This document shows, piece after piece, positions 10,424-56,855 of a stretch of 64,000 nt of DNA (position 1 is its first letter; the number at the start of each line of letters is the position of its first letter). Made by a program: the position numbers and the translations under genes. The stretch is from NCBI RefSeq assembly GCF_016808335.1, contig NC_053148.1:43540930-43604929 (forward strand), written 5' to 3'. Below the pieces are notes generated by a model that was given only the letters and a program-made list of their open reading frames with translations, was not told the DNA's origin and did no database searches. This DNA is from Panicum virgatum (lineage: Eukaryota > Streptophyta > Magnoliopsida > Poales > Poaceae).

Positions 10424-11988
10424 TTATCGGGATGCATGACAATAGATAACAAAATCCCGATGAATGTCTGGTAGGGTCAGCACTGGGGCGGTCGTTAACT
10501 TATTCTTCAATTCTTGAAAACTCCTCTCACATGACTCTGTCCAGGTGAATTTCTTCTCTTTCTTGAGCAGCTCTGTCATGGGCCGGGCTATCTTGGAAAA
10601 TCCCTCAATGAATCTCCGATGATATCCAGCTAGTCCAAGAAAACTTCTGATTTCACTAACATTGGTCGGTTGCTGCCAATTGGAAACTGCTTCGACCTTC
10701 TCGGGGTCTACTGCTACTCCTTCTGCGGTCAGAATATGATCAAGGAAAGCTACTTTTTCTAGCCAGAATTCACATTTGCTGAATTTGGCATATAGCCTAT
10801 GTACTCTCAATTTTTCCAAAACTACTATCAGATGTTGCTCATGCTCCTGAACACTCTTCAAGTAAATAAGTATGTCGTCAATGAAGACTATGACAAACTT
10901 ATCTAACTCGTCCATAAACACCTTGTTCATGAGGTTCATGAAGTATGCAGGTGCATTGGTGAGTCCAAAAGACATTACGGTAAACTCAAACTGTCCGTAG
11001 CGGGTGACAAAAGCTGTCTTTGGAATATCACTTTCTCTGATCTTAAGTTGAAAATATCCTGACCTTAGATCAATCTTGGAGAAGTACTTGACTCCTTTTA
11101 ATTGATCGAAAAGGTCATCAATCCTAGGAAGGGGTACTTATTCTTGATGGTAACTTCGTTCAGTGCCCGGTAGTCCACACACAACCTCATACTCCCATCC
11201 TTCTTCTTGATAAATAGGACTGGGGCTCCCCAAGGCGATGAGCTTGGTCTGATGAAGCCAATTCGTTGCAATTCTTCCAGTTGCCTCTTTAATTCTGCCA
11301 ATTCAGAGGATGCCATCCTATAGGGTCTCTTGGCTATAGGGGCGGTTCCAGGGACAAGGTCGATGACAAACTCTATATCCCTATCTGGTGGCATTCCAGG
11401 GAGTTCCTCCGGGAAAACATCTGGGTACTCATTTACTACTGGGACTTCTTCTAAGGACTTGGCTTCCATGCTAAACACCATTGGGTCTGATCCCCTTACC
11501 CGGGTATGGCAGGTCACTCGTACTCCTTCCGGGTTCGTTAGGTGTACCACCTTGTCAGTACAACCTATGAGACCATTGTGTCGGCTTAACCAGTCCATTC
11601 CAAGGATCACGTCTATTCCCTTAGACTTAAGTAATACTAAGTCTGCTAAAAATTCTACCCCACTTAAATTGATCCTTACCCGTAGACAACCTAGTTGACA
11701 TTTGATGTCACCTCCAGGCGTCCGGGTTATTAGGGGTGTTTTTAGTAGTACTGTAGGTATGTTGTGCTTTTCCACAAAACTCGAGGATAGGAACGAGTGT
11801 GATGCTCCAGAATCAAATAATACTGTTGCAAGAGCTGAGCTGACTAGGTACTCACCGAGCACTACACCCTGAGCTCCTTGAGCCTCTTGTGCATTGATGT
11901 GGTTGATGCAGGCTCATCCAAATGACTGCTGGGGCTGCCTCATCTGCTGACTGTTGTTGTTGGTGTTGTTGTTGTTGCGGATGGGCAC
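10424..11988 (-). pseudogene. Gypsy protease and reverse transcriptase
   Basis: The aspartic protease active site is visible as FDSGASHSF, with the LGMDWL block further on. The RT then reads [18 protein letters not shown] and [15 protein letters not shown], and after a frame change near 11140 continues with [11 protein letters not shown] and VFIDDILIY (catalytic Asp pair). An Asn-rich linker separates gag from the protease. Nonsense codons at about 11989 and 11913 and the frameshift break the polyprotein. Gag and protease share one frame, so a gag-pol fusion is likely in intact relatives. Confidence 0.92.
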
Positions 11989-13134
11989 TCAGTTGGCACC
12001 TGACAGAACTGGCCTTGGTCCATTCACTGTGTTGAAGAAGGCTGATGTAGCAGGCTTGTTCTTGGCATATGGGCAGTTGGCAATGAAATGTCCTATCTCA
12101 CGGCAGTTGAAACATGCCCTAACATTGCTGTTGTTGGTGGTGACCTGGCTTGCATTACTCTGCGGGACCTTCATGGTGTTCTGGCTCCTGAGCTGTGTAT
12201 TAGGGGCCTGTGGGCCTGTCACCTGAGATTGAGTCCTATACAGCATAGGGGTCTGGGATCTTGGTGCAATGTTGCTGAAGCTTCTGGGTTTCTGGAAGCG
12301 ATCCTGCTGGCGGGACTTGTTTTCCAGAAACTTGCGCTTGTTATCCTTCCTCTCTTCAATTTTGGCCCTTTCTGTAAGTATCGCCTTGTTCATCAGGGTG
12401 TTGAAGTCCGGGTAGATTTGTGGGGTAAGTAAGGTCCGGAGTTCTGGGTTTAGTCCTTTCTTGAACATGTCCTACTTCTTCTCATCATCATTCACTTCTT
12501 CTAGTGCATATCGGGCCAACTCCATGAACTGATGAGTGTACTCTTCCACCGACATGCTTCCTTGCTGTAGTGTGCGGAACTCATCTGCCTTGCGCTTCAT
12601 GGTAGCTGAGGGAATATGATATCGGCGGAACTCTTTCACAAATTCTTTCCATGTGATGGTGGAGGCGTCTTCGGTAGCGGCACAGTAATTTTCCCACCAG
12701 GCTAAGGCAGTCCCGGTGAGTTGGTGTGCTGCCAGAAGAACTTTGTCCCGATCTTGGCATTCAAACGGCTCGAGTTTCCTCTGGATCACACGAAGCCAGT
12801 CGTCTGCATCCAAGGGGTTGCTGGATCTGGCAAAAGTGGGCGGCTTGGTCCTTAGAAAAGCCGTCAGCTTGTCGTTCATGGTTTGCTCTCGTGGCCGCTT
12901 GTTGACAAGGGCATTGGCCAGTGTTTCTAGGATGAGGGTCTGGTTGTGGATTATCTGTGCCAGGCCCCCGAGGGGTGGTGGTGGTGGCAGTGGCCCTTCT
13001 ACTTGATTTTCTCCTCTGTCCTGGCTCACTTCCTGTTCTTCCCGAGGAGGGTTCTGCCCATTTGGTTGTGCTCCTGCATTAGCGGCTGCAGGGTTCCGGA
13101 TGCGGGAGGCCCTCGTAACGCTTCGGGAAGCCAT
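11989..13134 (-). pseudogene. Gypsy gag with zinc knuckle
   Basis: The ATG at 13134 opens a Retrotrans_gag protein: a basic and Pro-rich N-terminus, a capsid-like core with DADDWLRVIQRKLEPFEC and WENYCAATED, and a CCHC knuckle CFNCREIGHFIANC (spacing C-x2-C-x4-H-x4-C) near 12080-12120. An in-frame TAG at 12472-12474 interrupts it between the core and the C-terminal part, and TGA at 11989 ends it. The ATG directly follows a splice-acceptor-like CAG. Confidence 0.92.
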
Positions 13135-13421
13135 CTGTAGATTGGGTAAAGTTTTTGTGAGATTAGGATTAAATGATGTTTAAGTTATTTAATTCGTATT
13201 TTTGAAAAGGCAGAATCTTCTTTCTGCCGATAAGCACACAACTAACAAGCACACAAACATAAACAACAAGCACACACAACTTTATTATCGCAAGGGAGGG
13301 TACAACACGGGGACAAGACTAAAACGCGTACTACACGTTTGGATACTGGTTCACACTTAAGGGTACAACTTAAGCCAGTGGGGCTGGGAGGTACAACACT
13401 AGGGTGGCGTCGGGCACTCTA

Positions 13422-14285
13422 CTAGCGGGGCGATCCTTCTTTTGGGGCGGAACGTGATTCCAGGGGAACAGACAACTCGCCATCCTCTAGGTTTCCGTTT
13501 TCCCTGGGTTGCGTAGCAGCTTCTCCTTCATCGGCGGCAGTAGACCTTTCAGGGTTCTCGGGTGGGGCTTGTGGGGTTATCACGAGTGGTCCCCATCCTA
13601 TGACGGGTGTCCCGAGTAGAACATGGTCTTCCCCAATTGCCGAGACTGGGGTTCCACTTCTGGTCCATTCTTGCATACGTCGTTCTCGGACTTGCCTGAG
13701 GCTCTCCTGAGCGACTGCTTCACTGCTGACCGCGGCTGCGGCTCTCGCCTCGGCTTGTGCTGCTCGTATCTGTTGCAGTCTCACCGCGAGCTCTGCTTGC
13801 TCGGCTCGATGGGTCTGCTCCCTCAGAATGTTGGCTTGCTTGTCAAAGAGCTGATCCAAGGAGGCTAAGTAGGTAGCCACTTGGTACAGAGGGTCCTCTT
13901 CATGGCGGCGCCGTTCCAGACTTCTCATGCGCGCTTCCCAAACTGGGGTTCTGATGGCCGGCGGGAAGAACCTCATTGGTGTGGAGGCGAGGTGTCTTTC
14001 AAAAATCCGGAACAAGTAACGGAGCACCTTTCTGACGGCCAAGGGATAGGTGTCTTGGTGGCTAAACCCTGTAGCAGTCACTCGCCATGGCTGGATGTCG
14101 GGGTAGCGATCAATTCTGGCGATGACTAGGTTCACCCTGCAGCGGAGAGTGCCATGATGCTCGTACTCTCTGCTGTAGTACCTTGGGCGTTCCGTGACGC
14201 CAAGGCTTTCCAGGGCGTTGATCAAGAGGCTGGGGAAGCCAGGTGCAGCTTGGCAATTGCCCTGGGTCCATCCTTCTTCAGCCAT
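13422..14285 (-). CDS. Extra ORF B of the gypsy element (pre-gag)
   Basis: An intact ORF of about 287 aa lies between the PBS and gag. The start at 14285 (MAEEGWTQG) is preferred to an upstream in-frame ATG at 14318, because CAG|ATGGCTGA and the residues after it match ORF A. The N-terminal ~130 residues share blocks with ORF A (SREYEHHGTLRC, RYPDIQPW, TATGF, DTYPLAVRKVL, STPMRF, YLASLDQL). An Ala/Gln/Arg-rich coiled coil (about 140-205) and a Pro/Glu-rich tail follow. No catalytic motif or known domain is recognised. It is not gag or pol. Extra ORFs are known in some plant Ty3/gypsy lineages, but the role here is unknown. Confidence 0.75.
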   Translation of the reverse strand: MAEEGWTQGNCQAAPGFPSLLINALESLGVTERPRYYSREYEHHGTLRCRVNLVIARIDRYPDIQPWRVTATGFSHQDTYPLAVRKVLRYLFRIFERHLASTPMRFFPPAIRTPVWEARMRSLERRRHEEDPLYQVATYLASLDQLFDKQANILREQTHRAEQAELAVRLQQIRAAQAEARAAAAVSSEAVAQESLRQVRERRMQEWTRSGTPVSAIGEDHVLLGTPVIGWGPLVITPQAPPENPERSTAADEGEAATQPRENGNLEDGELSVPLESRSAPKEGSPR

Positions 14286-14424
14286 CTGAAAACAAAGATA
14301 GGGTGAATAAACTTGCACAATTATTCAGGGTACACAAAGGGAGTAGATGATATTTATTATTGCAACATGGTGGGATACATACTTCATGGATACACGATTA
14401 TTAGGGCAAAGGGTGCTACTCCTA

Positions 14425-15342
14425 TCATGGGGACTCTTCCTCGATCCTGATAGGGTGCTTCTTCAGTGGAAGACACTGACCCATCACATCATCTTCAGTC
14501 TGAGTACCCTTATCCCAATGGGTTTCTTCAGGTTCTTCCTCTTCAGTCTGAGTGCCTATGTCCCAATGGGTTTCTTCGGGTTCTTCTTCTTCGGTCTGAG
14601 TGCCTACATCCCATTGGGCTTCTTCGGGTTCTTCTTCTTATTCCTCTATCCACCCACCTTTTCCTCTGCGAGCCTTGTATTCTTGCATTCGGGCTTGGAG
14701 AGCGGCTAGGGAATTCTCGGCGCGTGCGGTTATTGTCTGTTGTTCTTCCAGTTCTGTCTCACATTCTTGCATTTGGGCTTGGAGAACAGCTAGGGAATAC
14801 TCGGTGCGTGCGACTCTTGTCCGTTGTTCATCCAGCTCTTGGGTTGCCTTTTCTGCTCTGTGGACTTGTTGCTTCAGTTGTGCCGCTTGTTCGCGGTAGA
14901 GCTCATCTAGGCTGGTGAGATAGATGGACAGGTGGGAGACCGTATCTTCTAGGTCTTCTTCTTCTCTTCCAAGTCCTCTCATCCGTGCAATCCATGTGCG
15001 TCCTCTTCCTTTAGTAGGCGGGGAAAATCCCATGGGAGTCTGCTGAAGATAATGCTTGTAGATTACACGCAGACGTCGCAGGGCTTTACGGGCGGCTTTT
15101 CGATAGGTGTCAGGGAAACGAAATCCAGTGGTGGAGATGAACCAGGGATCCACATCAGGGTAGCGGGTGCTCTTTCCCACGAAAACCATTACGTCGCACC
15201 GAAGAGTGCCCCTGGAGTCGTACTCCCGGTAGACGTACTCTGGTGGGTCCACCACTCCAATACGTTCCAGGCTGAGTATCAATAACTTAGGAAGGCCGGG
15301 CTCTGCGTGACAGATTCTGCCAATCCATCCATTGTCAGCCAT
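14425..15342 (-). pseudogene. Extra ORF A of the gypsy element, with TQT-repeat tail behind a nonsense codon
   Basis: The first ORF after the PBS starts MADNGWIGR at 15342 and runs 234 codons to a TAA at 14638-14640. The N-terminal domain is related to ORF B (REYDSRGTLRC, RYPDVDPW, TTGF, DTYRKAARKAL, TPMGF, YLTSLDEL). A coiled coil follows, with two copies of a repeat around ARTEYSLAVLQAQMQE and ARAENSLAALQARMQE. The same frame stays open past the stop to 14425 and encodes three acidic 16-residue repeats. The stop replaces the first Glu codon of repeat 1 (a GAA to TAA change), so the tail probably belonged to the protein. Function is unknown. Confidence 0.75.
14497..14640 (-). repeat. Three 48-bp tandem repeats encoding EEEEPEE-x-WD-x-GTQT
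   Basis: In ORF A frame, three 16-residue units of the form EEEEPEETHWDIGTQT are repeated with period 48 bp. Variable positions are Thr-His/Ala-Gln and Val/Ile/Lys. Each ends in TQT. The first unit begins with the nonsense codon. Confidence 0.85.
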
Positions 15343-15469
15343 CTGGAACAGGGCAAGAACCAGTGGTGAGTGTTTGTGTGAAAGAAGGATTAAGGAAGGA
15401 AAAGTCCTAGTGTGAAAGGGCCGGAAAAAGGGTTTCGCCTCTAGGGTCGCGTCCTATGGCCAACCTACA

Positions 15470-15481
15470 GCTCTGATACCA
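15470..15481 (-). other. Primer-binding site (initiator tRNA-Met)
   Basis: In element sense TGGTATCAGAGC starts three bases after the 5' LTR end. It is complementary to the 3' end of initiator tRNA-Met, the usual primer of plant gypsy elements. Confidence 0.88.
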
Positions 15482-15483
15482 CC

Positions 15484-18400
15484 TGAAGCGTCCCCTCATA
15501 AGAGAAGACTTAAATGTGATACAAACATCAGTCCTAGGAGGCTGATGACACATTTATTACATCAGATGGTTCATCGCCGTACAACTCTACGCGGTAATGG
15601 GTAGAGAAGTGCCACTATCGCGAGGATTACAATCCACACCCACACAACGATATTAATTATAAAAAGAGGGTCATCAGAGTCTTGCGCCATGCGGTATCTC
15701 CTGCGGGTGACCCTAATCCACAGGCAAGGCTGGGTGCAGGACGGTACCCTACTCGACATCGTCGGGAACGAAGTCTGGGTCTTCCTCTGTAAAAATAAAG
15801 GATGGGGTGAGTACAAACGTACTCAGCAAGTCCAACCACACCCACGGAGGGGGTATAAACAGTATATAATGCACAGGGTAAAACAAGGATAAGGCTACGG
15901 TTTAATTTGCGGGAAAAAACAATATCTTATGCATGGGTTCATTTGAAAGAAAGGATTTTCAAAGCGAGCTTTTCTTTGTACCGACTAACACATAATGTTG
16001 GCCTACACAGGACCCAAATCTTAGGCTGCTACCAGACTCATCATCCGCCGTAGCACACGGCACAACTGCCGGACACATTTCCGAAACAACTCACGCCAAC
16101 CCATCCCAAAGTAAACACTAGTTATGTGAACACACCGTAACTCGCCCAGTACCGTGGGCACGGCTATTCGAATAGGTTTTAACTCTGCAGAGGTGTGCAA
16201 CTTTACCCACAAGCGGGGTACCGCAACTCGATCACCTTAGTGTCGGTGCAGATCCCAACAAAGCCATTACTCACCTTAGCTAGCCCTGACTAGCCATCAC
16301 GGGATGCACCAAGGGGGTCATTGACCTATAACAGAGGTTGTAACCGGGGCATAAGTCACACAGAGCTAATCCCTTCTCCTTGATCACCCGTTGCTCTCAG
16401 CTCTCCTGATGGCTATCAGACTAACTAGTGGGGTTTATGCTAAGTCGTTGCCCATTCAACGGTCGAGTGGTTTGCACGATAGTGGAGTTAGGTGAGATGA
16501 CACACCAACTCGGTCCTTAGTGGTGACAAGATGGATATCTCCCTTCCTTGCTCTGCCACACAGGCACGAGCACACCAATCGGCAAATCACACAGAAATGC
16601 CATCCATCCCGTCTAAACTCATCTTTCGAAATTCCACATTTCTCCCTTCCCACATACGCACACATTTTCTTTATAAAATAAGTTGTATTGTGTATAAGGT
16701 CCTAAGTGTTCTAGCAGCGATTAACGTCCAAACAAAACACATTCAGACATTAATTTAGGTGGTCAAGGAATGGTTATAACAAATCAAGGGGTGGCTACCC
16801 AACCATGTTTTCAGCAGGCAAAACATATGAATTTTATAAAACAGGCCAATAGGTTGTGTTTATAAAAACTAGGATAAAACATGCATCAAAGGGCGGGATT
16901 TAACTTGCCGTCTTCGAAGCCTTCCGGGAAGTCCTGCTCGAGGTACTGTCCTTCGGGTTCGGGGTCGCGGAACTGGTCCTCGTTCGCTTGCTCGCAGAGC
17001 TGTTCGTCGGCGGGCTCTCCTTCGTTCACACCGTGATCTATGTCGTATACAAACAAGCACACAATCAAGAAAAAGAAATAAAAGCTTTATCGTTGAGCTC
17101 GAATCGGAAATAATTAAGATATGGAGATAGGAGTAATATTTTAGGGTGGTTTCCTAATGGCATGGCCAAAACTATGTTATGAGAGGCATGGTAGAGTTTT
17201 AGGTCGATCCGAGGTTGTTTGGCATGAAATGATAGGTTAACGGTGTGTTTAGGGTCTAAACAAGGGCCCAAGGACTCGTTTGTAATTAGTGAAAGGACTT
17301 GATTAGAATTTTGGGGAAGGTTTGGGTTATTCTGGAAAAGGATAGGGTTTTATTTATAAATAAGTTTATATAGTGGAGGATTTGGTTGTAAATATAATAA
17401 AGGATAGGGCATTATCTGCAAAAGGCCAAAGGGTGGAAGGATTCTTAATTGAATAGAATAGAGAGGAAGGTTTATTTTGCAAATAGTCTAGAGAGTGGGG
17501 GACTCTTTAAGAAATATTGCAAAGGGCAGGGGGTTCTGGGCACATTTTCCCTCCTTCCTCCCCCCTCTCGCGACCAAAACAGGGGAGGGGTCAGAGGCGT
17601 CGGCGGCGGCCGATTCCGGCAGCCCGGGGCGATGGCGGCGGCCGGGAGGAGAGGGGAAAGGAAGAGGAGGAGGAGGAGGTGGCTTGATTCCCGGCCTCAC
17701 CTAGGGCCGGGGCGGCGTGAGGAGGCGGGACGACGGGAGCGGGCGGCGGCGGCCTCTGGAGCTCGGTGTGGCGGCGTTGTAGAGCTAGGAAGGGAAGCTT
17801 GGGGAGGCGAGCGTGGATATGGATGCAGCAGGGTGCTCCTCGGCCCCTTTAATAGGCGGCCGAGGCGGTGGAGATGGGGGTACGGCAGTGGCGACCATGC
17901 GGGCGATGCGGAGCGCCTTTAATGGCGATGGGGCCGGTCGCGGTGCTGTGGAGGCGATGGCGCGTAGTGGCTGCGAGGACGGGCATGCAGAGGGCGGTGG
18001 CATGGGCATCGAGGACGTCGTCGAGCACATGGAGCGGGACGGCGTCAAGCGGAGCGATGCGAGCGGTGAGGCGGGGCGAGCAGTGCACGCGCGAGCGTGG
18101 CCGGCGGCGAGGGCGGCATAGGGAGGTGGCAGCGGTGGGTCTTGGGGCGCGTGGAACACGTGCACGTGGGCGATGCGCAGGAAGACGGGGCATGCGGCGC
18201 GTGCGCGGGCAGGCGGGCGTCGCGGCGTGTGTGTGCGTGGGCGGCGGCGAGCTGTGCAGCGCTGTGCGGCCGCGACGAGCGGCGCAGCGGGTGCACGTGG
18301 GAGCAAGGGCGGCGTGCGTGGGCGAGGTCGGGAGCAGTGGCGAGCGGGACCGGGACGGCGGGTTGCACGGCGGGCGACGCGCGTCGCGTGGCGCATGCGC

Positions 18401-18946
18401 GGGGAGCGTGCGTTGGCAGCAGCGGGCGGCGCGGCGGTGATGGCGGCCGCGTGGATGCGTGTGGCGCGCGGCGGGAGCAGGCGTGCGCGTGGGCAGGGCA
18501 GGGGAGGCGGGCCAGCTTGTGTGGGCCGATCGGCGCTCGGGGCGCGCAGCACGGGTGAGGAATGAAAGGGGGAGAGAGGAGGAAGGGAGGAGGAGGAGGA
18601 AAGAAGAAAATGGAGATAGGAAAATGGAAAAAGGGAAAAGAAAAGAAAAAGAAATAAAAAAGAAAAGGAGAGAGAGATTCGCGGTGAACCTTTCGGCGGC
18701 GACCACGACGCCAGTCAGGCACGCGGCGGTCGCTGGCGCGTGCCGCGGCTTTTGCGGGAAGCGGCGAGCGCGGAACGAGGGGAACAGAGGGATGGAATGG
18801 GGACTGGATTCGGGTGTCGGGACAGGGGAAAAGATCTCGGGAGTTAGGGTTCAGGTTTTAGGAGGATTTGAGCTCAACGACGGAAATAATTTTAAAAGAA
18901 TATTTTAGCGGGTGATTTATTCTTGATAGATTTTTGGGATGTCACA
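15484..18946 (-). repeat. Gypsy 5' LTR
   Basis: Nearly identical to the copy at 5067-8529 and about the same length. Visible differences include an 18-bp-scale deletion near 18359 and a compensating insertion near 18523. The high identity points to a fairly recent insertion compared with the decayed copia host. Confidence 0.93.
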
Positions 18947-30894: not shown

Positions 30895-30899
30895 TGAAA

Positions 30900-33800
30900 T
30901 GTCACACCCTGAAATTTTTGAATTTCAGGATGTGATTAAAATTAAAAATAAAACAACAATTTTCTCACAATTTTAAAATTTTCTCAACATTTATTTTTCT
31001 TCACAGAGAATTTAGTGTAAAAGAAAATAAATATTGGTTGTTTTTCAAATTAAATGAAGTTGTTCTTCGGGTGATGCATTAATGTCACATGCAAAGTGTT
31101 GTTGAGTGTGAAAACTTTTCAAAACGTGTTCTATCATCAAAAGTTCTTACTGGGAATTTTCCGGAATTTTCTGGATTCTTTTCCCATTTTTCCCTAGAGC
31201 AAACTCTAATTTTTAGAGGCTCTTCCAAATCTTCTCATGAGCTCCAAATATTTTATTTGAGTTCGTTAGGTCCCAATATATTTCTAGGATTTTTCCTAGA
31301 ATTTTCGGGCCATTTGGAATATTTTTCGGACTTTAAATATGAATTCTAGATTTTTTCTAGAATTATTTTAATTTCGAAAATAATTAATTCCGAATTTTAA
31401 ATGGGCTAAGTCTATCAAAAGTACATAAATCTCTAATGGACCTCAAGGGTCCATTCGTGTGTTCCCTAATGGGCTAAACGCACGTAAAGCCCATTAGTAT
31501 GGGAGGGAGGTTTAGTACCACATTGCTAGTTGATGTGGGATGGTGAGACCTTTCTCCCTATATATTAAACCAACCTCTCATGGCAACTCCACACAAAAAT
31601 ATAGACTACCCATAGGGAGGCTCTTTGTTTGGGAATCCCTAAAATAATCTTTTCCCCAGAATCCCACCATCCTCCGCATCCGTGCATCTCCGGTGAAATC
31701 CGACACCACCCTAGTGCTCAGCTCGTCGTCTTCTTCGTCGTGGTGTCTTCCTTCTCGACAAGTTCACCGCCCCAGAGTTTCGCAAGGTAGCAAGGGAGCT
31801 CTTCGACCCCTTATTCCCCTCTCCTTCTCGCTCCGGCGCGCGCGCCCGCGCCCGCCGGCTCTGCTCTGCTGCCGCTCGCCACAGAGCCGCCTCGCCGCCG
31901 CCGATCCGCCATTTAGAGGCTGCAATCGCGTTCCTGGCGTCGCGCGCTACCTCCCCGTGCAAAACCCGCATTGAACCGAGCCGGAATCGCGTTATCGCGA
32001 CACGCCGGCGAGCCCCTGCCGCGGTCTGCTCGCCGCCGGCGCCCACGCTGCCGCTCCGTGCGCCGCCGCGAGCTTCGCTCCACCCGCTATAGCTCTGCGC
32101 CGCCGCCCTAGATGAGTTGAACGCGCCGCGCGCTTGCCCCTAATGCAAACCGCGCTAGAATCGAGCACCGGACGGCCGTTTCGGCCAAGTCCGGCGATGC
32201 GCCGCCGCCCCTAGCTCGCCGCCGGTCGCTTGCGCCGCCGCCAGCCGCCCCAACCCGTCCTGACCGTTAGATCGCGATCGGACGGCCACGATTAGGTCCA
32301 ATCCAAGTCAACTAAACCTATACCGGTCAACCAGGGAGCGTTTTGCAAGAGGGCCCCTCCGTTTTGTTTAAATAAACTTGCAGTCCTCCTGAGTTCAAAA
32401 GTATTTCTGTTTTAATCCAAAACTTTTTAGAAAACCCCTCGAACTTTTCTAATATAGAACCCGCCATCCTTAGTGCGTAGTTTTGCAAGCTAGTCCCTAT
32501 AGTTTAGGTTTAATCTCATTTTAGTCCCTGGTTTCTTCAGATCTAGCCCCTAGAAGCTCTGTTCTCTTACAAATAAGTCCTTAGAACCTTGTTTTGGCTA
32601 TAACTTCTTCGTTTTAGCTCCGTTTTCATCGATTCTTGCGCTCACGTGATCCTTGTGATGTGTGCAATAGCTTTATGACCTTTTTATCCTCTGTGAGCAC
32701 ACTTTGTTGTGTCTCACAAATATTTTTTTTCCATTAGTCCTTAACCTTTTGGTTAATCGCGACTAAATCCTTACTCATTGTTTATCCCATAGTTTCCATG
32801 TCCTAGCTCCGTTTTCCGTGTTTATTGCGCTCTCGTAACCGTAGCAGCGAGCTCTATCCTTTAGTACGCTCTTTTTAAGTCTTTCTTTTGTTTTGGTGTA
32901 TTGTTCTTAGATGTATCTTCTTGTTTGCTTTGTATGTTTGCTCGTTGATTGCTCCGAGTAGAAGGATCGTTGTTTGAAGATTGAAGATCAAGTTTTTCAT
33001 GTGAGCAAGAGCTGAAGAGCAGTAAGAGTAGCTTTTCGTTGGAGAAAGTCAAGTGACCCTAACCATCTTTCTGTCTATGCTTATTTACAAGAGTATCATG
33101 ATGATTTAATTGGAACATGGAGAACCACCCAAGAAAACAGTACAACCACAATACTATATGGCTCTGGTCTTGGCTGATTAATTAGAGACTCTAGCTTGTG
33201 ACAATTTTACCGAAAGGGCAAGAGGGGATGCATCGACGGGGTATAGCTCGGTCCTCTTGGGGCAATTGGTATTGTTTAATGGTCCTTTGGCAAGGTACCA
33301 CCTCATTAGGACAGTGTTATGACCGCTTTGACTTGAAACCTTAGCGGATTGTCATAGGTTAGGGAATCTTTGTAAAGGCCTCGTAGCGTCCCTATGCAAT
33401 CACACCTCGGAAGTGTGGTATTGTGCCTAGCTAGCACATTGCGTGGTTGGGTTCAAAGTTCTTTGGAACTTTTACGCGAATTGTGGTGAAAGTGTACAAC
33501 CTCTGCAGAGTGTAAAACTAATATATCAGCCGTGCTCATGGTCAAGAGCGGCTTGGACCCTCACATGATTAATAAACTTAAAGATTGATTTAAATCACTT
33601 TCTGGTTATTTCTTGTGGTCTTGCTGAGTACCAACCATAAGTGTACTCACCCTTGCTTACTGCTGCTCAGAAGGAGAAAGTTGTGGTGAAGTCTTTTGAA
33701 GATGTTGCTGAGTTCTAGGCGTACGCAACCCCTAGTCGATTGCCTGTGAAGTTTGGAGCATTCATTTCCAGGATAAGCTGTATAACTCTGATAGTCTTTT

Positions 33801-33909
33801 AATTGTTTTATTTTCTCTTTTACGTGATATTGTTACTGATTATTCACTTATGATGTCTCTATATGTATGAAACTTGATCCTGGCATACATATAGTTATGC
33901 ATTCGGTTT
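30900..33909 (+). repeat. Inverted-LTR element, arm 1 (lacks the LTR 3' tip)
   Basis: The arm starts TGTCACACCCTG and aligns with the reverse complement of arm 2 almost base for base up to ATGCATTCGGTTT at 33909. The last ~23 bp of the LTR seen in arm 2 are missing. It contains about 420 bp (roughly 32393-32812) absent from arm 2. The GC-rich tract 31690-32280 carries open frames that recur in arm 2 and have no domain. Confidence 0.88.
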
Positions 33910-35488
33910 CACAAGGTTAGCAAGAGACAAATGTTTAGGTGGGTACCATCCAACACACATTAACTTTCTTCTCAGTTATTCCTTCTTGCAATGTATTCTT
34001 CTTAATTCCTGATAACTCACACAAAACACTTTGCGGATACTCAATCTAATTCCTCCTTTAACTTTCATTCTTTCCACAGCTTTGTTGACACATCTTTCGA
34101 AGAACATCCTTCATACCTTGATAAAGTGATTTGAATAGAGCTTAGTTGCTTCTTCTGGCTTGAGTATATGGTATCATTTCTCAAGTCCACAAACACATCT
34201 CATAACCTTCAAGTAAAGTGACGAAGATAAGCCAACCGTAAAGTTCAGATCTTTTCATACATCCTCAGGCAGCCACTGTGTTGTAGAAACATGATTTTCT
34301 TGGTTTATTATCTTGGCGACTCGTGGTGGCATGAGAATTGGAGATTGACGGCATTCTCATTTGGCAGAGGTGTCCTGATCATCCGTCTTGGCAAGGGGAT
34401 CAACTGATGACGTCTGACCGAGTGTATGGCTATTGGAGCTTCGGTTCTTGGGTTGATCATCATCCTCCTTTTCACCAACTCTTGGTGGTCGCAACTTAAA
34501 TAAATCAAGGTGGAGGGGGGAAAGACATGGGGGTAACAGAAAGGGAAAAGAGTGCATTCTTGTCTGCAGCTTCTTTCATTTGTCGATCATTGTAGGCACT
34601 TGGAGGTTTCTACTATTACTGTCAGTGTTGCCATGAACTCCTTTCTTGACATCCTCTAAAGGATTAGGTAGAAAGATAGAAGATAACAAGGATGTGGGAT
34701 ATACATAAGAAGAACTCATCTAGGCAACTGATATCATCATAGGTAGAAGACCCACAATACACCAACAATCATTACAAAGAAGTGAATCAAACAAGGTCAT
34801 AAAGACAAGCATCATCACGCAAACACGGAATTTCACCAGATCAACAGAGTCACAGACGATGCTAAACGTTGTTAAAAGGGTTGCATGGGTATTCCTAAGC
34901 AGGTTATCTCTTTTAGCTTCGGTATTGATGGCATGGATGAACTGTCAGCTCCATTCTTCAATCAATTTGGACAGGCTTAGGGTACGTGGTACAGATCATC
35001 TAATTTTCTTGAATCAGGAAGGATACTTTGGAATCAAAAATCAAGGGATGATTCCAGAGCGGTATTGTTATTATTATTATTATTATTTTGGAAAGAAGAG
35101 GCACAATGTGAAAACTGAGCACATTGTAAACAAATTAAAAGAAAATAGGCTCAAGAAAGATAAGTTAAAAGAAATCCAAGGAGGGAATTTGTATAATCAT
35201 ACATCAAGGAGGATTAAAATCAAGGAGTGATCCAGAAGGAGATATTAGACCGACCAGAATTGAGGGTCTAACATTTGCGAAATAATAAGGTGCAAATGAG
35301 AAGGGGTCAGACGAGAAAGGTGAGTTATCAAAGCAGATTGAGAGAAGAAAAAGCTAAGGAGTGAGAATATTCAATGGAGGGGGTCAAGGAATAAGTATGA
35401 ATGGATTTTATATCAAAAGAAACCTTAGGAAACGACCATTGCTACCTAGGCTTACGTCCTACAGTCGATACAGCTCTGATACCACCTC
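33910..35488 (-). other. Internal region of the inverted-LTR element, with PBS
   Basis: On the minus strand the segment begins GAGGTGGTATCAGAGCTGTA, a tRNA-iMet primer-binding site just inside the end of arm 2 (PBS at about 35474-35485). The remaining ~1.5 kb shows only short open frames without gag or pol motifs, as in leader regions or non-coding LARD-type elements. It ends abruptly at the truncated arm 1. Confidence 0.75.
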
Positions 35489-38400
35489 TGTCACACCCGG
35501 TTTTAAGGACAAAACCGAATGCATAACTATATGTATGCCAGGATCAAGTTTCATACATATAGAGACATCATAAGTGAATAATCAGTAACAGTATCACGTA
35601 AAAGAGAAAATAAAACAATTAAAAGACTATCAGAGTTATACAGCTTGTCCTGGAAACGAAGGCTCCAAACTTCACAGGCAATCGACTGGGGGTTGCGTAC
35701 GCCTAGAACTCAGCAACATCTTCAAAAGACTTCACCACAACTTTCTCCTTCTGAGCACCAGTAAGCAAGGGTGAGTACACTTATGGTTGGTACTCAGCAA
35801 GGCCACAAGAAATAACCAGAAAGTGATTTAAATCAATCTTTAAGTTTATTAATCATGTGAGGGTCCAAGCCGCTCTTGACCGTGAGCACGGCTGATATAT
35901 CAGTTTTACACTATGCAGAGGTTGTACACTTTCACCACAATTCGCGTAAAAGTTCCAAAGAACTTTGAACCCAACCACGCAATGTGCTAGCTAGGCACAA
36001 TACCACACTTCCGAGGTGTGATTGCATAGGGACGCTACGAGGCCTTTACAAAGATTCCCTAACCTATGACAATCCGCTAAGGTTTCAAGTCAAAGCGGTC
36101 ATAACACTGTCCTAATGAGGTGGTACCTTGCCAAAGGACCATTAAACAATACCAATTGCCCCAAGAGGACAGAGCTATACCCCGTCGATGCATCCCCTCT
36201 TGCCCTTTCGGTAAAATTGTCACAAGCTAGAGTCTCTAATTAATCAACCAAGACCAGAGACATATAGTATTGTGGTTGTACTGTTTTCTTGGGTGGTTCT
36301 CCATATTTCAATTAAATCATCATGATACTCTTGTAAATAAGCATAGACAGAAAGATGGTTAGGGTCACTTGACTTTCTCCAACGAAAAGCTACTCTTATT
36401 GCTCTTCAGCTCTTGCTCGCATGAAAAACTTGATCTTCAATCTTCAAACAACGATCCATCTACTCGGAGCAATCAACGAGCAAACATACAAAGCAAACAA
36501 CAAGATACATCTAAGAACAATACACCAAAACAAAAGAAAGGCTTAAAAAGAGCGTACTAAAGGATAGAGCTCGCTGCTACGGTTACGAGAGCGCAAGAAA
36601 CACGGAAAACTACAGGTTTATTTAAACAAAACGGAGGGGCTCTTTTGCAAAACGCAACCTGGTTGACCGGTATAGGTTTAGTTGACTTGGATTGGACCTA
36701 ATCATGGCCGTCTGATCGCGATCTAACAGTCAGGATGGGTTGGGGCGGCTGGCGGCGGCGCAAGCGACCGGCGGTGAGCTAGGGGCGGCGGCACATCGCC
36801 GGACTTGGCCGAAACGGCCGTCCGGTGCTCGATTCGAGCGTGGTTTGCACTAGGGGCAAGCGCGCAGTGCGAGCAAGTCATCTAGGGCGGCGGCGCAGAG
36901 CTAGAGTGGCCGGAGCGGAGCTCGCGGTGGCACACGGAGCGGCAGCGTGGGCGCCGGCGGCGAGCAAACCGCGGCGGGGGCTCGCCGGCGTTTCGCGATA
37001 ACGTGATTCCGGCTCGGTTCAACGCGGGTTTTGCACGGGGAGGTAGCGCGCGACGCCAGGAACACGATTGCGGCCTCTACAGGGCGGATCGGCGGCGGCG
37101 AGGCGGCTCTGTGGCGTGCGGCGGCGGAGCAGAGCCGGCGGGCGCGGGCGCGCGCGCCGGAGCGAGAAGGGGAGGGGAATAAGGGGTCGGAGAGCTCCCT
37201 TGCTACCTTGCGAAACTCTGGGGCGGTGAACTTGTCGAGGAGAAGGCACGGGGTCGACGATGAAATGGCGATGACTCGCGAGAAGGAAGACACCACGACG
37301 AAGAGGACGACGAGCTGAGCACTAGGGTTGTGTCGGATTTCACCGGAGATGCACGGATGCGGAGGATGGTGGGATTCTGTGGAAAAGATTATTTTAGGGA
37401 TTCCCAAACAAGGAGCCTCCCTATGGGTAGTCTATGGCCCTGTTTGGTTCAGCTTTTCTCAAACTCGCTTATAAGCTAAACAAGATTTTTTGATAAGCCG
37501 CGATCTCAAAAATCTGCTATCCAAATATAAGCTAGACGTTTGGCTATCTAATTATTTCTAGCAGAAGGAACATGGACCACGTCGGCGAGAGGAGGGGCAG
37601 CGAGCACCGCCCAGGCCCTGGCGCGCTGGCGAGGGGCACTCTGCCGCAGCCGCCGAAGGTCTGCGTGGAGCCCAGGCGGTGCCGGATTCGGAGGAGGGTG
37701 CGGCAGCGACGGATCTTGGCCGGCGGCGCCGGATTCGGAGGAGGAGGGTGCAGCGGCACTTCCTGGCGGGCCTACCTGCACCTACTTGCTCGATGGAGGA
37801 GAGGGCCGGCGGCGGGCGGGGAGGAGAGGGGCGAGGGCGGCGCTTCCTGGCGGACTTGCCTGCTCGATGGAGGAGAGGGATGGTGGGCGCGGCCAGGAGG
37901 AGATGACCGGCGGCAGTGGCAGGCGCGGCGGGCGCAGCCAGGAGGAGATGACCGGCGGCGGTGGCCGCGGCCGCGGCTGCAGGGAGGAAGAGAGAGCACG
38001 CGCCCGGCGGTCGGGTCGAGAAGGAGAGGACCGAGAGGGATAAGCGTCGCGTTTCGAGAAAAGCGAGGTCCGAGCCGCGTTACGAAACGCAGTGCTGGGG
38101 ACGATTTTTTGGCGGTGGCGTTCCAAATAATCAAGTTGATAAGCAGACCGTTTGGCGGGATTATTTTGCTTTTTTCGCTCATAATCTGAGCATAAGCGAT
38201 TCCAAACAGGGCCTATATTTTTGTGTGGAGTTCCATGAGAGGTTAGTTTAATATATAGGGAGAAAAGTCTCACCATCCCACATCTACTAGCAATGTGGTA
38301 CTAAACCTCCATCCCATGCTAATGGGCTTTACGTGCCTTTAGGCCATTAGGGAACACACGAAGGGGCCCTTGAGGTCCATTAGAGATTTATGTACTTTTG

Positions 38401-38915
38401 ATAGACTTAGCCCATTTAAAATTCGGAATTAATTATTTTCGAAATTAAAATAATTCTAGAAAAATCTAGAATTCATATTTAAAGTCTGAAAAATATTCCA
38501 AATGGCCCGAAAATTTTAGGAAAAATCCTAGAAATATATTGGGACCTAACGAACTCAAATAAAATATTTGGAGCTCATGAGAAGATTTGGAAGGGCCTCT
38601 AAAAATTAGAGTTTGCTCTAGGGAAAAATGGGAAAAGAATCCAGAAAAATCCGGAAAATTCCCAGGAAGAACTTTTGATGATAGAACACGTTTTGAAAAG
38701 TTTTCACACTCAACAACACTTTGCATGTGACATTAATGCATCACCCGAAGAACAACTTCATTTAATTTGAAAAATAACCAATATTTATTTTATTTTACAC
38801 TAAATTCTCTGTGAAGAAAAATAAATGTTGAGAAAATTTTAAAATTGTGAGAAAATTGTTGTTTTATTTTTAATTTTAATCACATCCTGAAATTCAAAAA
38901 TTTCAGGGTGTGACA
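35489..38915 (-). repeat. Inverted-LTR element, arm 2 (complete LTR plus a 778-bp insertion)
   Basis: In sense (minus) direction it runs from TGTCACACCC at 38915 to GGGTGTGACA at 35489, so the LTR has perfect 10-bp inverted ends. Without the inserted TIR element (37436-38213) it is about 2.65 kb, shorter than arm 1 because of the ~420-bp difference near 36612. Confidence 0.88.
37436..38213. mobile_element. 778-bp Harbinger-like TIR element nested in arm 2
   Basis: Termini GGCCCTGTTTGG at the left and CCAAACAGGGCC at the right are perfect 12-bp inverted repeats; CGCTTAT motifs follow in both subterminal regions. It is flanked by TAT (37433-37435, 38214-38216). The unoccupied site in arm 1 (about 31600) has one TAT, which proves the 3-bp duplication. 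The GC-rich interior (37570-38040) has long overlapping frames with repeated GGAGGAGAGGG-like units and no recognised transposase. Confidence 0.9.
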
Positions 38916-38920
38916 TGAAA

Positions 38921-46375: not shown

Positions 46376-47881
46376 AAACTCGAATCAAACATTCCCTCTT
46401 CCTTCCTTGCAAACCCAAGAGCGACCCAAGAAGATACCTGTCCACGCAGCCTACCTTTTTTATCACAATTATTTTTGCGGTTGGACTACCATTTTTTTCC
46501 CACAAAAAGAACGAGGCCACCAGCCACATGCTCGCACTCGCACCCACCAGAATGCGGGTTGGTCCCACCGCGCACGGCCTTGGCTGGCGCGGGCCTGTGC
46601 CGGCCGTGGCTGGCGCGGCGGTGCCGACCGTGGCCGCGCGGGCTGTGGCCGCAGCCGGCCGGTGGCCGTGGTTGGCCAGGCAAGGGCCCTGGCTGGCCGC
46701 TGTTGGCCGCGGCAGTGGCTAGCGGCGACGGTGGCTCGCGATGGCTGCGTTTGGGTGCCTCTGCCTTTGACCAGATCTGGGTCTTGCGACCTGGAGATGG
46801 TGGGGGGCGGAGGCATGCTACACACGGGCGATGGGCGACGTGGTGTGGGGGTTGGGGCTCTCCTTCTCCTCCTCGGCGGTGTTGCTGGTCCAGCGCCGTC
46901 TTGGTGGTGGGGTTGGGGGGTCGCTGGTGCATGCTGGTGGCGCCGAGGTGGTGCTTCGGGCTGTGCCGGGCTTCTTCCGGTGGAGGCATTGCGGAGGCGG
47001 GAAGGAGTGGGCTGCGGGCTTGGCCAAGAACTTGCGGCAGGCATGGTGCTGAGTCGGGCGAAAGCCTTCACTGACGCTTTTGTCGGTGGCAATGGTGGCG
47101 GCGCCCTTGTGGCGCCGTTTTCCCTTTTGGGGGCACCATTGTGAGACATCATGTTCCTACTGCACGGGGCTCTTTAGGGTGAAAACCCAGTCCATCTTTG
47201 GACGTGCGACGGCGGCGTCTTTGGCGTCGTGCCCTCGTTGGAGGCGTCGCATTTGGAGACTCGCCTTGGCTAGGTAGTGGTGGTGGTTGGTTGGTGGTGT
47301 TGCCCGCGCGCAGCGGCAGAGGATGTGCGCTTGATCCGTGTTGACAGAGAGGTGCAGAGGACCCATGGGTGCTAGAGGTCTTAAGCTGGCGCACATGGTG
47401 CAGTGGTGATCCCAGTGACGGCTGAGCGGATGTTGGTGCTTTCAGAGCGGTCTCAGTTATCTGAGTCCTTGGCAGAGGAGTGTGAGGTGGTGGGAGAGGC
47501 GAGGCCCCCACGCAGAGTGGCCTGGATCAGTGTTTTTCATCGGCGATGCGACGGGAGTGTCCCGTTGAAGCACCACTGGAACAGGGGATCGACGGTCGTG
47601 TGTATGCAGCTTGAGGGTGATAGTCCCTTGGTGGAGGAGTTCGAGTTGTCGCTCTGGCTTGCAGCGGGCCGCGGCTTTTGGCGTGGCACAGCGTTGGCGA
47701 TGACGGTGCAGTTCGCGGCGGCTTCTTTCGCTTCCTCTCCCAGTTTGTGGTGGTGTAGTGTTTTGTTGGGTGTGTTATTTGCGTGCGTTGTTTGTGTGAT
47801 GATGATGTACGCTTTATCGTGTTATGTACGAATGCTTCTTCTTATATGATGTGGCAGTGCTACTGGCTTTATTTAAAAAAA
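46376..47881 (+). mobile_element. Poly(A)-ended non-LTR-like element upstream of the b561 gene
   Basis: GC-rich sequence ends in an A-run (47873-47884) after a T/G-rich 3' tail (GATGATGATGTACGC...). A GGTGAAAACCCAGTCC motif followed by GACGGCGGCG near 47180-47215 matches the body of the element at 41522-43617 in opposite orientation. No RT motif was found. The left boundary is uncertain and no TSD could be identified. Confidence 0.5.
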
Positions 47882-47907
47882 AAATCGAACCCGCCCGGAA
47901 GGAACCG

Positions 47908-47939
47908 CTTCCCCTTCCCCTTCCCCTTCCCCTTCCCCC
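47908..47939 (+). repeat. (TTCCCC)n in the promoter/5' leader of the b561 gene
   Basis: About five TTCCCC units lie 155 bp upstream of the start codon. Pyrimidine-rich leaders of this kind are common in grass genes; a regulatory role is only a guess. Confidence 0.8.
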
Positions 47940-48095
47940 ATCACGTCTAACCTCCCCCGCCCCGACGAACTCGCAGCCGCCTCCCCACCGCCGCGTGATC
48001 GCCCCGCCTCCCATGCCGCCGCCCCGCCTCGCCGCACCCTTCCCCTGAGAGCGCGCGTTTCCACGCCGATCGCGCCGCGCCGCGCCGCGCCCGCC

Positions 48096-50765
48096 ATGGC
48101 GCCCGCGGCCCTCCACCTCCTCGCGATCCTCTGCCTCGCGTCGACGCGCATCGCCGGGGCGGCGGCGGAGTGCGGCGTGAACACGAGCCTGGCGGGGTAC
48201 CACGCGGACCTGCGCATGTCGCAGCACCAGCTCCGCGGCCGCGTGGAGGTGCTCGACGGCTGCTCGTTCCGCGTCGCCGCGCTCGACCTCCTCCCGGGAT
48301 CGGCCTCCGCGCGGTGGTGGCGCGCGGACGGGACCGACCTCGACGCCCTCGCGCGCGGCGAGCCCGCGGCCGCCGACCCGCTGGACCGCACCTTCCGGTT
48401 CGAGTCCCTCGTCTTCCGCCTCCTCCCGGGCGTCTCCTGGCCGCGCGTCCCCATCCTCGCCGCCTACGACCCCCTCACCTCCTCCCTCTTCGGCTTCGTG
48501 CGCCTCTCCGGTGCCAACGCCTCCTCCGATCCCTCATCCTCCGCCGCGTCCGCGGCGCCCACCATGCTCGACTCCTGCGCGCAGCTCTCCCCGCGCTTCC
48601 GCTTGCGGTGGACGCTCCACGAGGCGAACAACTCCGTCGACATCGGCCTCGAGGCGGCCGTCGGGTCCGAGTACTACATGGCGTTCGGGTGGGCGCAGCC
48701 CGGCGTGGCCAAGCCGTCCGTGATCGGCGCCGACCTCGTCGTCGCCGGCTTCACCGAGGACGGCCGCCCGTTCGCCGACGACTACTACGTCACCAAGAAC
48801 AGCGAGTGCCTGCTGCGCGGGGACGGCTCGGCCGAAGGCGTCTGCCCGGACACGATCTACGGCCGCAACGACTCCGCCGGCCTCGTCAACGACACGCGCC
48901 TCGTCTACGGCCACCGCCGCGACGGCGTCTCCTTCGTGCGCTTCTCGCGCCCGCTGGTGTCCCAGGACAGCAAGCACGACGTCGCCGTGAACGCCACCCG
49001 GAACATGACCGTCGTCTGGGCGATCGGGCTGCTGCGGCCGCCGGACTCGCTCCGGCCCTACTACCTGCCGCTGGTGAGCCACGGCGCGTCCGCGGGCACG
49101 GCGTTCGCCTTCGCCAAGCTCAACTTGTCGGAAGCCGGCAGCGGGTGCGTCGGGCCGTTGGACGCCGACGACAAGGAGGACCAGGCAAGGATCACGTCGG
49201 AGCGCAAGACGCCACTGATCGTGACGGTGGGGCCGGCGCTGCACTACCCCAACCCGCCCAACCCCGACAAGGTGCTCTACATCAACAAGAAGGAGGCGCC
49301 CCTGCTCAAGGTGGAGCGTGGTGTGCCGGCCACCTTCTCCATCGAGGCCGGGCACGACGTGCCGTTGTACATCACGTCTGACCCTGTCGGCGGCAACGCC
49401 ACGTCCAGGAACACGCCCGAGGTCATCTACGCCGGCGGACCGAAGGCGGAGGACGTGCGGGCAACACCGACGGAGCTCGTCTGGTTGCCCGACCGGAACA
49501 CGCCGGACCTGGTGTACTACCAATCCTTGTATGATCAGAAAATGGGCTGGAAAATCCAGGTGGTTGATGGAGGACTCAGCGACATGTACAACAACAGTGT
49601 GCTACTGGACGATCAGCAGGTGACATTCTTCTGGACTCTCTCTGGTGACTCCATTAACATTGCTGCCCGAGGTGAGAAGAAGAGTGGCTACCTTGCGATC
49701 GGCTTCGGTAGCGCAATGGTGAACAGCTATGCTTATGTCGGGTGGGTCGATGGCAATGGCAAGGGGCATGTTAAATCTTACTGGATCGACGGGAAGGACG
49801 GGATGAGTGTGCACGAAACACACGAGAATGTTACACACAAGAGATGCCGATTGGAAAATGGCGCCATCATATTTGAGTTCACTCGTCCCTTAACACCTTC
49901 GTGCAGTGGAAGGGTGGAATGCAAGAACTTGATCGACCCGACCACTCCTCTGAAGGTCATTTGGGCAATGGGTGCTCAGTGGTCATCGGGCCCCCTGAGT
50001 TTGAAGAACATGCACTCGGACACAAGCAATCGTCCTATCAGGATTCTTCTGTTGAGCGGTTTGGCTGAGGCAGTGGAGGATCTGCGTCCAGTGCTTGCTG
50101 TTCATGGGTTTATGATGTTTGTGGCATGGGCTATTTTGTTCCCAGGGGGGATCATGGCTGCGAGATACCTGAAACATCTGAAAGGCGATCTCTGGTTCCA
50201 GGCCCACATCTATCTGCAGTATTCAGGCATAGCAGTAATGCTCTTGGGCGTTCTGTTTGCAGTTGCTGAGCTCCGAGGTTTCTCTTTCAAATCCAGACAT
50301 GCTAGAATTGGTGCAGTAGCGTTTACATTCGCGTGTGCGCAGCCAATAAATGCGTATCTTAGACCGCATAAAACGGAGAATAGAGAATCATCATCAAGAA
50401 ATAGGATCGCTTGGGAGTATTTGCATCCTTTTACCGGGAGGTCTGCTGCCATCGCTGGTATCGTGGCTCTCTTTACCGGCTTACAGCATCTTGGGCACAG
50501 GTATGGCAGTAAGAACATCAAGGGGCTTACATGTGGGCTAATCTTATGGTTTTTAAGCATTGCGTTGGTAACGGCTTATTTCGAGTACTTGGCAATTAAG
50601 CGGAGAAGAGATGGTGCTGATGGCCTTTCAGGAAAATGGGTGCTTGGCAACGCCGAGGAAGATGATACAGTTGATCTTTTGCAATCAGACAGGGTAGTCA
50701 GTAAAATGGAGTCTAATTCATCATCTGGGCCGATGGAAGTACAGCTTGAGCCACTTAAAGGATGA
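48096..50765 (+). CDS. Cytochrome b561, DM13 and DOMON domain protein
   Basis: An intact, intronless ORF of 889 codons resembles the plant family of At5g54830, in which similar total length is usual. A signal peptide (1-24) precedes a DM13-type domain (about 28-137), a first DOMON domain (about 158-325), a linker with a cupredoxin-like stretch (about 370-470), a second DOMON (about 480-640) and a cytochrome b561 domain (about 660-835). The b561 part has five hydrophobic helices and candidate heme-ligand His at about 670, 704, 735 and 777. The family transfers electrons across membranes, probably from ascorbate, with DOMON domains binding heme or sugar outside; the substrate here is inferred. 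The start at 48096 is the first ATG and leads straight into the signal peptide. Several N-x-S/T sites fit a secreted ectodomain. A retroelement poly(A) ends only ~210 bp upstream. Confidence 0.93.
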   Translation: MAPAALHLLAILCLASTRIAGAAAECGVNTSLAGYHADLRMSQHQLRGRVEVLDGCSFRVAALDLLPGSASARWWRADGTDLDALARGEPAAADPLDRTFRFESLVFRLLPGVSWPRVPILAAYDPLTSSLFGFVRLSGANASSDPSSSAASAAPTMLDSCAQLSPRFRLRWTLHEANNSVDIGLEAAVGSEYYMAFGWAQPGVAKPSVIGADLVVAGFTEDGRPFADDYYVTKNSECLLRGDGSAEGVCPDTIYGRNDSAGLVNDTRLVYGHRRDGVSFVRFSRPLVSQDSKHDVAVNATRNMTVVWAIGLLRPPDSLRPYYLPLVSHGASAGTAFAFAKLNLSEAGSGCVGPLDADDKEDQARITSERKTPLIVTVGPALHYPNPPNPDKVLYINKKEAPLLKVERGVPATFSIEAGHDVPLYITSDPVGGNATSRNTPEVIYAGGPKAEDVRATPTELVWLPDRNTPDLVYYQSLYDQKMGWKIQVVDGGLSDMYNNSVLLDDQQVTFFWTLSGDSINIAARGEKKSGYLAIGFGSAMVNSYAYVGWVDGNGKGHVKSYWIDGKDGMSVHETHENVTHKRCRLENGAIIFEFTRPLTPSCSGRVECKNLIDPTTPLKVIWAMGAQWSSGPLSLKNMHSDTSNRPIRILLLSGLAEAVEDLRPVLAVHGFMMFVAWAILFPGGIMAARYLKHLKGDLWFQAHIYLQYSGIAVMLLGVLFAVAELRGFSFKSRHARIGAVAFTFACAQPINAYLRPHKTENRESSSRNRIAWEYLHPFTGRSAAIAGIVALFTGLQHLGHRYGSKNIKGLTCGLILWFLSIALVTAYFEYLAIKRRRDGADGLSGKWVLGNAEEDDTVDLLQSDRVVSKMESNSSSGPMEVQLEPLKG

Positions 50766-51909: not shown

Positions 51910-52171
51910 CACAAGTCAAGCGGTTTTTTTATTTTTTATTTTTGTTTTTTACAAAAATATTTTTTCGTTTTCGAAATTTACAGGAATATACCTCGGCCGC
52001 CCCGCTACCGGGTGGCCGGGACCTGGTCGCCCCGCTGCGGGGCGGCAGGGGCTTTTGTGCAAAAACTTTTATGAAAATATTTGCGCGCAGGTCCCTGGGG
52101 GCCGGTCACCCGGCAGCGGGGCGGCCGGCCCTGGCCGCCCGGCTGCAGGGCAACCAACTCTCACACTCTTA

Positions 52172-52387
52172 TATAAGGGTTGGCTGGTCCCCCCACCCCT
52201 CATTTGCATCAGTAAAATTCTAGAAACCAAGAAAAAAGAGGGAGAGAGGCGAAGCCCTGCCGGATTTTCGAGCCGGCGACTGCAGGTAACCAAAATTCTT
52301 CTACGCTTTACAAATAGATTATGTTGTAATTATTTTTGTTGAAACAGTAGATTAGCAATCAATTTAATATCATGATTGTGTGTCCAG
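52172..52387 (+). promoter_or_regulatory. TIR promoter and leader intron of the MULE transposase
   Basis: CTTATATAAGGG near 52169-52180 is a TATA motif in the left TIR. Downstream, GACTGCAG|GTAACC (donor at 52286) and TGTGTCCAG (ending 52387) could define a leader intron that ends two bases before the transposase ATG at 52390. The right TIR has the same TATA motif, but its donor reads GACTGCAG|ATAACC, so the GT is lost there. Confidence 0.5.
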
Positions 52388-56050: not shown

Positions 56051-56855
56051 GGTGTTGAGCCCTGGCAATCACAAGTGAGAAATCAGATTGCTAATATACT
56101 ATATCAACGCTAATCATTATCAATAACTACACCTAAATGTACCACTAATCACTCATAATAATAATTAAATTGATTGCTAAACTACTGTTTCAACAAAATA
56201 CTTTCTACAATTTTCTAACATTTTCTAAAAAATTTTAATATTATCTTCCAATTTTTAAGACATTCTAATACTTCTCTAACAATTTTCTAGTACTTTCTAA
56301 TATTTAATCTAACACTAAATGTACTGTATCAACGCTAATCATTACAAGTAACTGCACCTAAATATACCACTAATCACTCCTAACAATAATTAAATTGATT
56401 GCTAATCTACTGTTTCAACAAAAATAATTACAACATAATCTATTTGTAAAGCGTAGAAGAATTTTGGTTATCTGCAGTCGCCGGCTTGAAAATCCGGCAA
56501 CCGGCTTGAAAATCCGGCAGAGCTTCGCCTCTCTCCCTCCCTCCCTCTTTTTTATTGGTTTTTGGAATTTTAGTGATGCAAATGAGGGGTGGGGGACCAG
56601 CCAACCCTTATATAAGGGTGCGAGAGCCGGTCGCCCCGCAGCCGGGCGGCCTGGGGCCCCAGGGACCTGCGGGCAAATATTTTCGCAAAAGTTTTTGCAC
56701 AAAAGTCCCTGCCGCCCCGCAGCGGGGCGACCAGGTCCCGGTTGCCCGGCAGCGCGGCGGCGGGGGTATATTCATGTAAATTTCGAAAACGAAAATATAT
56801 TTTTGTAAAAAACAAAAATAAAAAATATAAAAATAAAAAAACCGCCACAAGTCCA

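Follow-up and report, generated by a model that had tools for sequence, protein, structure and literature searches.

The window analysed here, a stretch of 64,000 nucleotides of Panicum virgatum (C13:43540930-43604929), contains a full-length LTR element in which the 3′ LTR is inverted and both outer ends are the same (U3) end. Judging from its sequence, this non-autonomous element probably entered TGAAA in a single integration, as an aberrantly formed linear cDNA bearing a U3 end on each side, a reading to which we give somewhat better than even weight.

Architecture of the palindromic element

A preliminary description of this DNA had proposed a palindromic pair of inverted LTRs with a shared target-site duplication (TSD), and this arrangement was confirmed, 30900-33909 (+) pairing with 38915-35489 (-). 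The element occupies the 8,016 bp between TGAAA at 30895-30899 and TGAAA at 38916-38920, and its features are as follows.

30895..30899 (no strand): TGAAA, the left-hand copy of the 5-bp TSD
30900..33909 (+): arm 1, the inverted LTR (3′ LTR position of the minus-strand element), U3 terminus outward, last 23 bp absent
31559..31569 (+): TATA-box-like sequence TATATATTAAA in arm 1, of putative function; the motif is also in arm 2
33908..33910 (no strand): inner junction, where the internal region and the inverted LTR meet and overlap by about 2 bp (33908-33909)
33910..35488 (-): internal region with primer binding site (PBS), non-coding, complete but for about 35 bp (hairpin and polypurine tract) before the 3′ LTR
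35473..35484 (-): PBS TGGTATCAGAGC, 4 bp past the LTR, common to the relatives displayed and presumably of the initiator Met tRNA type
35489..38915 (-): arm 2, the 5′ LTR, retaining its two ends; compared with arm 1 it has a later insert and a gap of 428 bp
37436..38213 (no strand): DNA-transposon-like insert, in arm 2 only, with ends GGCCCTGTTTGG and a 3-bp duplication, TAT
38916..38920 (no strand): TGAAA, the right-hand copy of the TSD

Read along the minus strand, the locus runs from the flank with TGAAA through the LTR, GAGG, the PBS TGGTATCAGAGC and the internal region as far as 33910 to the reversed LTR. The U3 terminus TGTCACACCC lies at both outer ends, with TGAAA immediately adjoining each, and TGTCACACCCTGAAATTTTTGAATTTCAGGATGTG is the inward reading from both of them. 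The inverted arm pairs match at 98.1% (32811-33909/35512-36610), 97.5% (30899-31604/38213-38916), 93.1% (31743-32384/36609-37249) and 95.3% (31601-31771/37267-37435). Among the features of integrase-type LTR retrotransposons, the element has a TG...CA LTR with family copies elsewhere, a 5-bp TSD and a PBS after the 5′ LTR, and it lacks the direct LTR orientation and the polypurine tract (PPT) before the 3′ LTR, where about 35 bp are absent.

The arms had been described as near-identical; they are indeed alike, but near-identity does not hold throughout, as 82 of the 2,580 aligned sites differ in the pairwise comparison (84/2,580 in the multiple alignment) and there are also a 778-bp insert and private indels. 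The insert (37436-38213) is carried by arm 2, which is also without 428 bp found in arm 1, and arm 1 is without 43 bp found in arm 2. The stretches absent from arm 2 aligned unbroken in other loci (e.g., L009-L013), as did those absent from arm 1 (e.g., L009-L013 and L017). Arm-2 matches of 20 fetched family loci do not extend through 37436-38213, and the insert is younger than the arm duplication. As the palindrome is read from assembled sequence, it could be an assembly artefact such as a read fold-back or a mis-joined repeat. A fold-back would give identical arms, whereas here the 82 substitutions, the one-sided 778-bp insert and the private deletions set the arms apart, and both flanks continue collinearly into a second locus on C4 (L030, see below). 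Fold-back was rejected on the private arm differences, and an artefact is the least credible of the explanations weighed here.

With a substitution rate of 1.3e-8 per site and year assumed, the K2P distance gives an age of 1.25 My for the arms as a whole and 0.8 My when their GC-rich part is set aside. This GC-rich part (31800-32388) is more divergent between the arms, also outside CpG (20/391 sites vs 35/1,888 elsewhere, Fisher p 0.0005), an excess that could mean two different source LTRs. In the nearest four other copies listed per arm, the same part reaches 17-23%, vs 3.5-5.5% in two other regions; a recombinant origin was rejected on the ground that the nearest other copies also vary more there.

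Family relationships and the empty site

A search of the assembly (G000, 1.13 Gb) with arm 1 as the query gave 6,162 first-look candidates, 40 of which were scored, and a 35-bp pattern with at most 2 mismatches located 911 LTR starts. The family sample comprised 20 fetched loci; L029 and L030 were fetched later. The relatives have LTRs of about 2.7-3.3 kb and, in the eight measured, internal regions of 1,680-2,445 bp; the LTR termini of the family are TGTCACACCC...GGGTGTGACA, the same 10 bp forming a terminal inverted repeat. Ordinary family members (e.g., L009-L013 and L015) share with the window element these LTR termini, the PBS, the internal region and the 5-bp TSD, which was found in all five relatives read for it (L009-L013). 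They differ in that their LTRs are direct, as in the intact relatives generally, and the PPT AAGGGGGG is present, whereas one LTR of the window element is inverted and its PPT is absent. The internal region of the relatives ends in CTTGTGAATCTCGGGACGAGATTCCTTTTAAGGGGGGTAGTTC, with small variations, and abuts the 3′ LTR; in the loci fetched, the 8 distinct internal/LTR junctions that carry an exact GGGGGGTAGTTC (L009, L010, L011, L012, L013, L015, L018 and L029) are direct without exception, L008, which is the same place as L009, not being counted again.

The longest open frame per internal region ranges from 86 to 257 codons over nine regions (the window and eight relatives) and is 168 codons in the window. 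Judged by open-frame length, the element is of a non-autonomous, LARD-like type whose internal region would be without gag and pol. At 5067-18946 (-), the window also holds a Ty3/Gypsy element with direct LTRs of about 3.5 kb that are 94.9% alike and with gag, protease, RT, RNase H and integrase domains in separate open frames. The PPT and PBS motifs of this element are similar to those of the palindromic element's family, a similarity that hints at a Gypsy-type partner for the non-autonomous family. The two halves of the internal region at 33910-35488 each have their best matches in a different group of relatives (up to 94% for query 1-522, up to 95% for 1-456 and up to 94% for 556-1579), and the source element may therefore have been a recombinant. 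Besides the window, whole-length matches in one piece were given by four copies, 80-81% alike, among the best 40 of 606 candidates scored. On C11 (9895604-9909669), four copies of the internal region lie about 4.15 kb apart on one strand, probably as a tandem LTR-internal array of the same family.

The two arms are mutually closest (3.3%) among 28 LTR copies from 20 loci; the next-closest copy is L016 for arm 2 (6.9%) and L017 for arm 1 (9.0%), the 28 copies being a sample of about 900 LTRs. The common origin of both arms, as initially claimed, is thus borne out by their being mutual nearest relatives in the LTR sample, and this holds in each of the three LTR regions compared. The latter result argues against the insertion of two cDNAs from different elements, joined to the target together by their U3 ends and to each other by repair of the remaining ends. 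Such U3-U3 use with end-joining would produce the structure of the locus, and 22 of the 84 arm differences are shared, that is, both states are present in at least two other loci. As a test for two source elements, this count does not discriminate, the ordinary control pair L014, of equal divergence, having 27/69 such sites and L009 having 6/12. An origin from two cDNAs is accordingly regarded as unlikely.

The left flank matches a second place in two pieces, C4:41367731-41367982 and 41369783-41370003. This place (L030) and the window are collinear over about 6 kb, the aligned pieces being 81-90% identical, with indels and, as the one exception, a short inverted match; L030 is therefore taken as the probable homeolog of the window locus. 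The joined window flanks align through a single TGAAA in L030 at 343/392 positions, with the 8,016 bp absent. This empty collinear site with one TGAAA means that the 8,016 bp can be accounted for by a single insertion that duplicated 5 bp, as the preliminary description had proposed; two separate insertions are unneeded and would not yield the pattern of the locus simply. Two independent solo LTRs or elements in opposite orientation, sharing TGAAA by chance and with a deletion between them, are a bare possibility, a chance 5-bp match being expected about 1 time in 1,000. Against them stand the single TGAAA with no other sequence between the flanks at the collinear site and the sister relationship of the arms in the LTR sample. 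Such an origin is very improbable, in line with the doubt expressed earlier that two independent solo LTRs would share one TSD.

Routes to the inverted 3′ LTR

At the inner junction, read on the minus strand, CTTGTGAA is joined to ACCGAATGC with an overlap of about 2 bp. About 35 bp (hairpin and PPT) and 23 bp of the 3′ (U5) end of the LTR are absent here, the position of the junction 23 bp before the LTR end having been reported beforehand and upheld by the arm comparison. The absent 35 bp extend from the first bases of a perfect 8-bp hairpin, GAATCTCG-GGA-CGAGATTC, which immediately precedes the polypurine tract in the relatives, to the exact U3/LTR start. The hairpin has a fold z of -2.33, with 3 of 200 shuffles equally good. 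What had been taken for a partial leader of about 1.5 kb is actually nearly the whole internal region, given that the intact L009-L013 and L015 read LTR-PBS-internal-(about 35 bp with PPT)-LTR.

We infer that the palindrome arose before integration, and each step of its formation as cDNA is reconstructed in the same way. Plus-strand synthesis would halt on reaching the hairpin base, just ahead of the polypurine tract, and the stalled 3′ end would be joined to a plus-strand LTR copy, 23 nt before the U5 end, over about 2 matching bases. The joining could be a template switch, with either the strand itself or the plus-strand strong-stop DNA of the second packaged genome as the new template, or else end-joining of a cDNA that had broken at the PPT gap. 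From there, copying or pairing would continue to the exact 5′ start of the LTR, giving a molecule of the order LTR-PBS-internal-inverted LTR, and integrase would accept this U3-U3 molecule because the LTR termini have the same 10 bp (TGTCACACCC/GGGTGTGACA). The breakpoints coincide with landmarks of reverse transcription, the hairpin and PPT being gone on one side and 23 bp at the U5 end of the LTR on the other, and a stalled plus strand leaves just such a gap, running from the hairpin base to the precise start of U3. A faulty cDNA formed ahead of integration would account for the breakpoints at the pre-PPT stop and near the U5 end as well as for the TSD and the exact U3 ends. This route is also favoured in view of earlier proposals, for grasses, of complex insertions that are flanked by a TSD and ascribed to reverse transcription, as in the template-switching complex LTR insertions of Triticeae, rice and maize (Sabot and Schulman 2007, PMC1950507).

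Against the cDNA route, a post-integration flip suits the structure equally well. In the usual reaction, integrase pairs a U3 end with a U5 end, and the scans given below yielded no repeated case pointing to a cDNA mechanism. In about 7 Mb of Triticeae sequence, 20 rearranged complexes were assigned to post-insertion recombination vs 2 to template switching (PMC1950507), which favours later rearrangement in general.

The flip, which we consider possible though less probable than the cDNA route, would start from an ordinary minus-strand element at TGAAA. Its 3′ LTR would be released by two breaks, or bypassed through a template switch in replication, and then reattached in reverse. The outer junction would form via the 10-bp terminal inverted repeat, with GGGTGTGACA of the LTR 3′ end kept at the flank and mimicking an exact U3 end; the inner junction would lose 35 + 13-23 bp with a 2-bp overlap, 10 of the 23 missing bases remaining at the flank. 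The LTR has exactly the 10-bp inverted termini required, the hairpin before the PPT would be a natural break site, the TSD would be retained automatically, and no unusual integrase substrate is required. The arms differ about as much as the two LTRs of an ordinary element do (control pair L014, 69/1,974 sites), and post-insertion rearrangement is the commoner source of complex elements (PMC1950507). Two breaks would nevertheless have to fall at opposite ends of one LTR, each no more than a few tens of bp from the terminus, and a flip of the 5′ LTR should be equally likely, yet an exact-pattern scan for its inner junction, of low power, gave 0 matches. This post-integration flip via the 10-bp repeats, which gives the same outer ends and TSD, was overlooked in the preliminary description. 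Of the reading offered there, the single insertion stood, and the snap-back molecule from reverse transcription stays a proposal, as a full-length copy with a flipped 3′ LTR describes the locus equally well.

Further copies of the 33909/33910 junction, a possibility raised beforehand, were absent from the best 40 of 1,755 candidates in the host assembly; the only full-length match of a 201-bp query was the window, and the other 39 matches were one-sided. Exact-pattern scans for a 3′-flip junction found the window alone with a gap of 0-30 and none with a gap of 44-74. No outward inverted LTR pair within 12 kb was seen among 100 listed of the 911 LTR starts (exact matches on C1-C4 only, by eye). 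In the titles and abstract openings of the open-access literature searched, no LTR element with inverted LTRs and one TSD is described.

Among known systems, DIRS-1 type retroelements resemble the window element in having inverted terminal repeats. DIRS elements rely on a tyrosine recombinase and are not known to make a TSD; the window element differs in having a TSD and a longest internal open frame of 168 codons, and it agrees with integrase-type LTR elements in its PBS, its relatives and its TSD. The complex insertions of Sabot and Schulman (PMC1950507) share with it an aberrant structure, one TSD, matching outer LTRs and an origin ascribed to reverse-transcription error. They differ in having three LTRs in direct order, one of them internal, and two internal regions, with inversion not described in the main text; the window element has two LTRs and one internal region.

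Present state of the element and its surroundings

Because the PPT is absent and the LTRs are inverted, the window element should be unable to make a normal copy. The TATA-like motif in both LTRs points inward, and the arm-2 insert lies about 35-45 bp downstream of the motif of arm 2. A transcript of arm 1 could, speculatively, fold into a long hairpin and become a source of siRNA against the element's own family. Mu killer, an inverted duplication of the MuDR transposon in maize, is comparable in that it, too, is a transposon copied in inverted orientation, with a transcript that could fold into a long hairpin; it differs in that the window element is an LTR element. With confidence evenly divided for and against, we propose that integrase inserted the palindromic cDNA in a single concerted step, using a U3 end on either side, and that the inverted LTRs with their inward TATA-like motifs could then silence the family of about 900 LTRs via hairpin RNA.

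If the concerted joining is true, U3-U3 integration would be a natural event, suggesting that the copying machinery of an LTR element may sometimes make and insert a back-to-front molecule. If the palindrome predates integration, the locus would be a natural record of integrase acting on a pair of identical U3 ends and of reverse transcription halted at a PPT-adjacent hairpin. Annotation tools expect direct repeats, and inverted-LTR elements are probably missed by them. Such tools search for LTR pairs bearing TSDs; for LTR_STRUC this is stated in PMC1950507.

Elsewhere in the window, a 962-codon open frame at 47877-50765 (+) with At5g54830-like, DOMON and cytochrome b561 domains is likely a host gene. 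An inverted repeat of about 445 bp (51924-52368 and 56389-56833), 82% alike, has its copies 4 kb apart, and another of about 330 bp (62645-62975 and 63298-63629; 92%) contains 60-bp tandem units.
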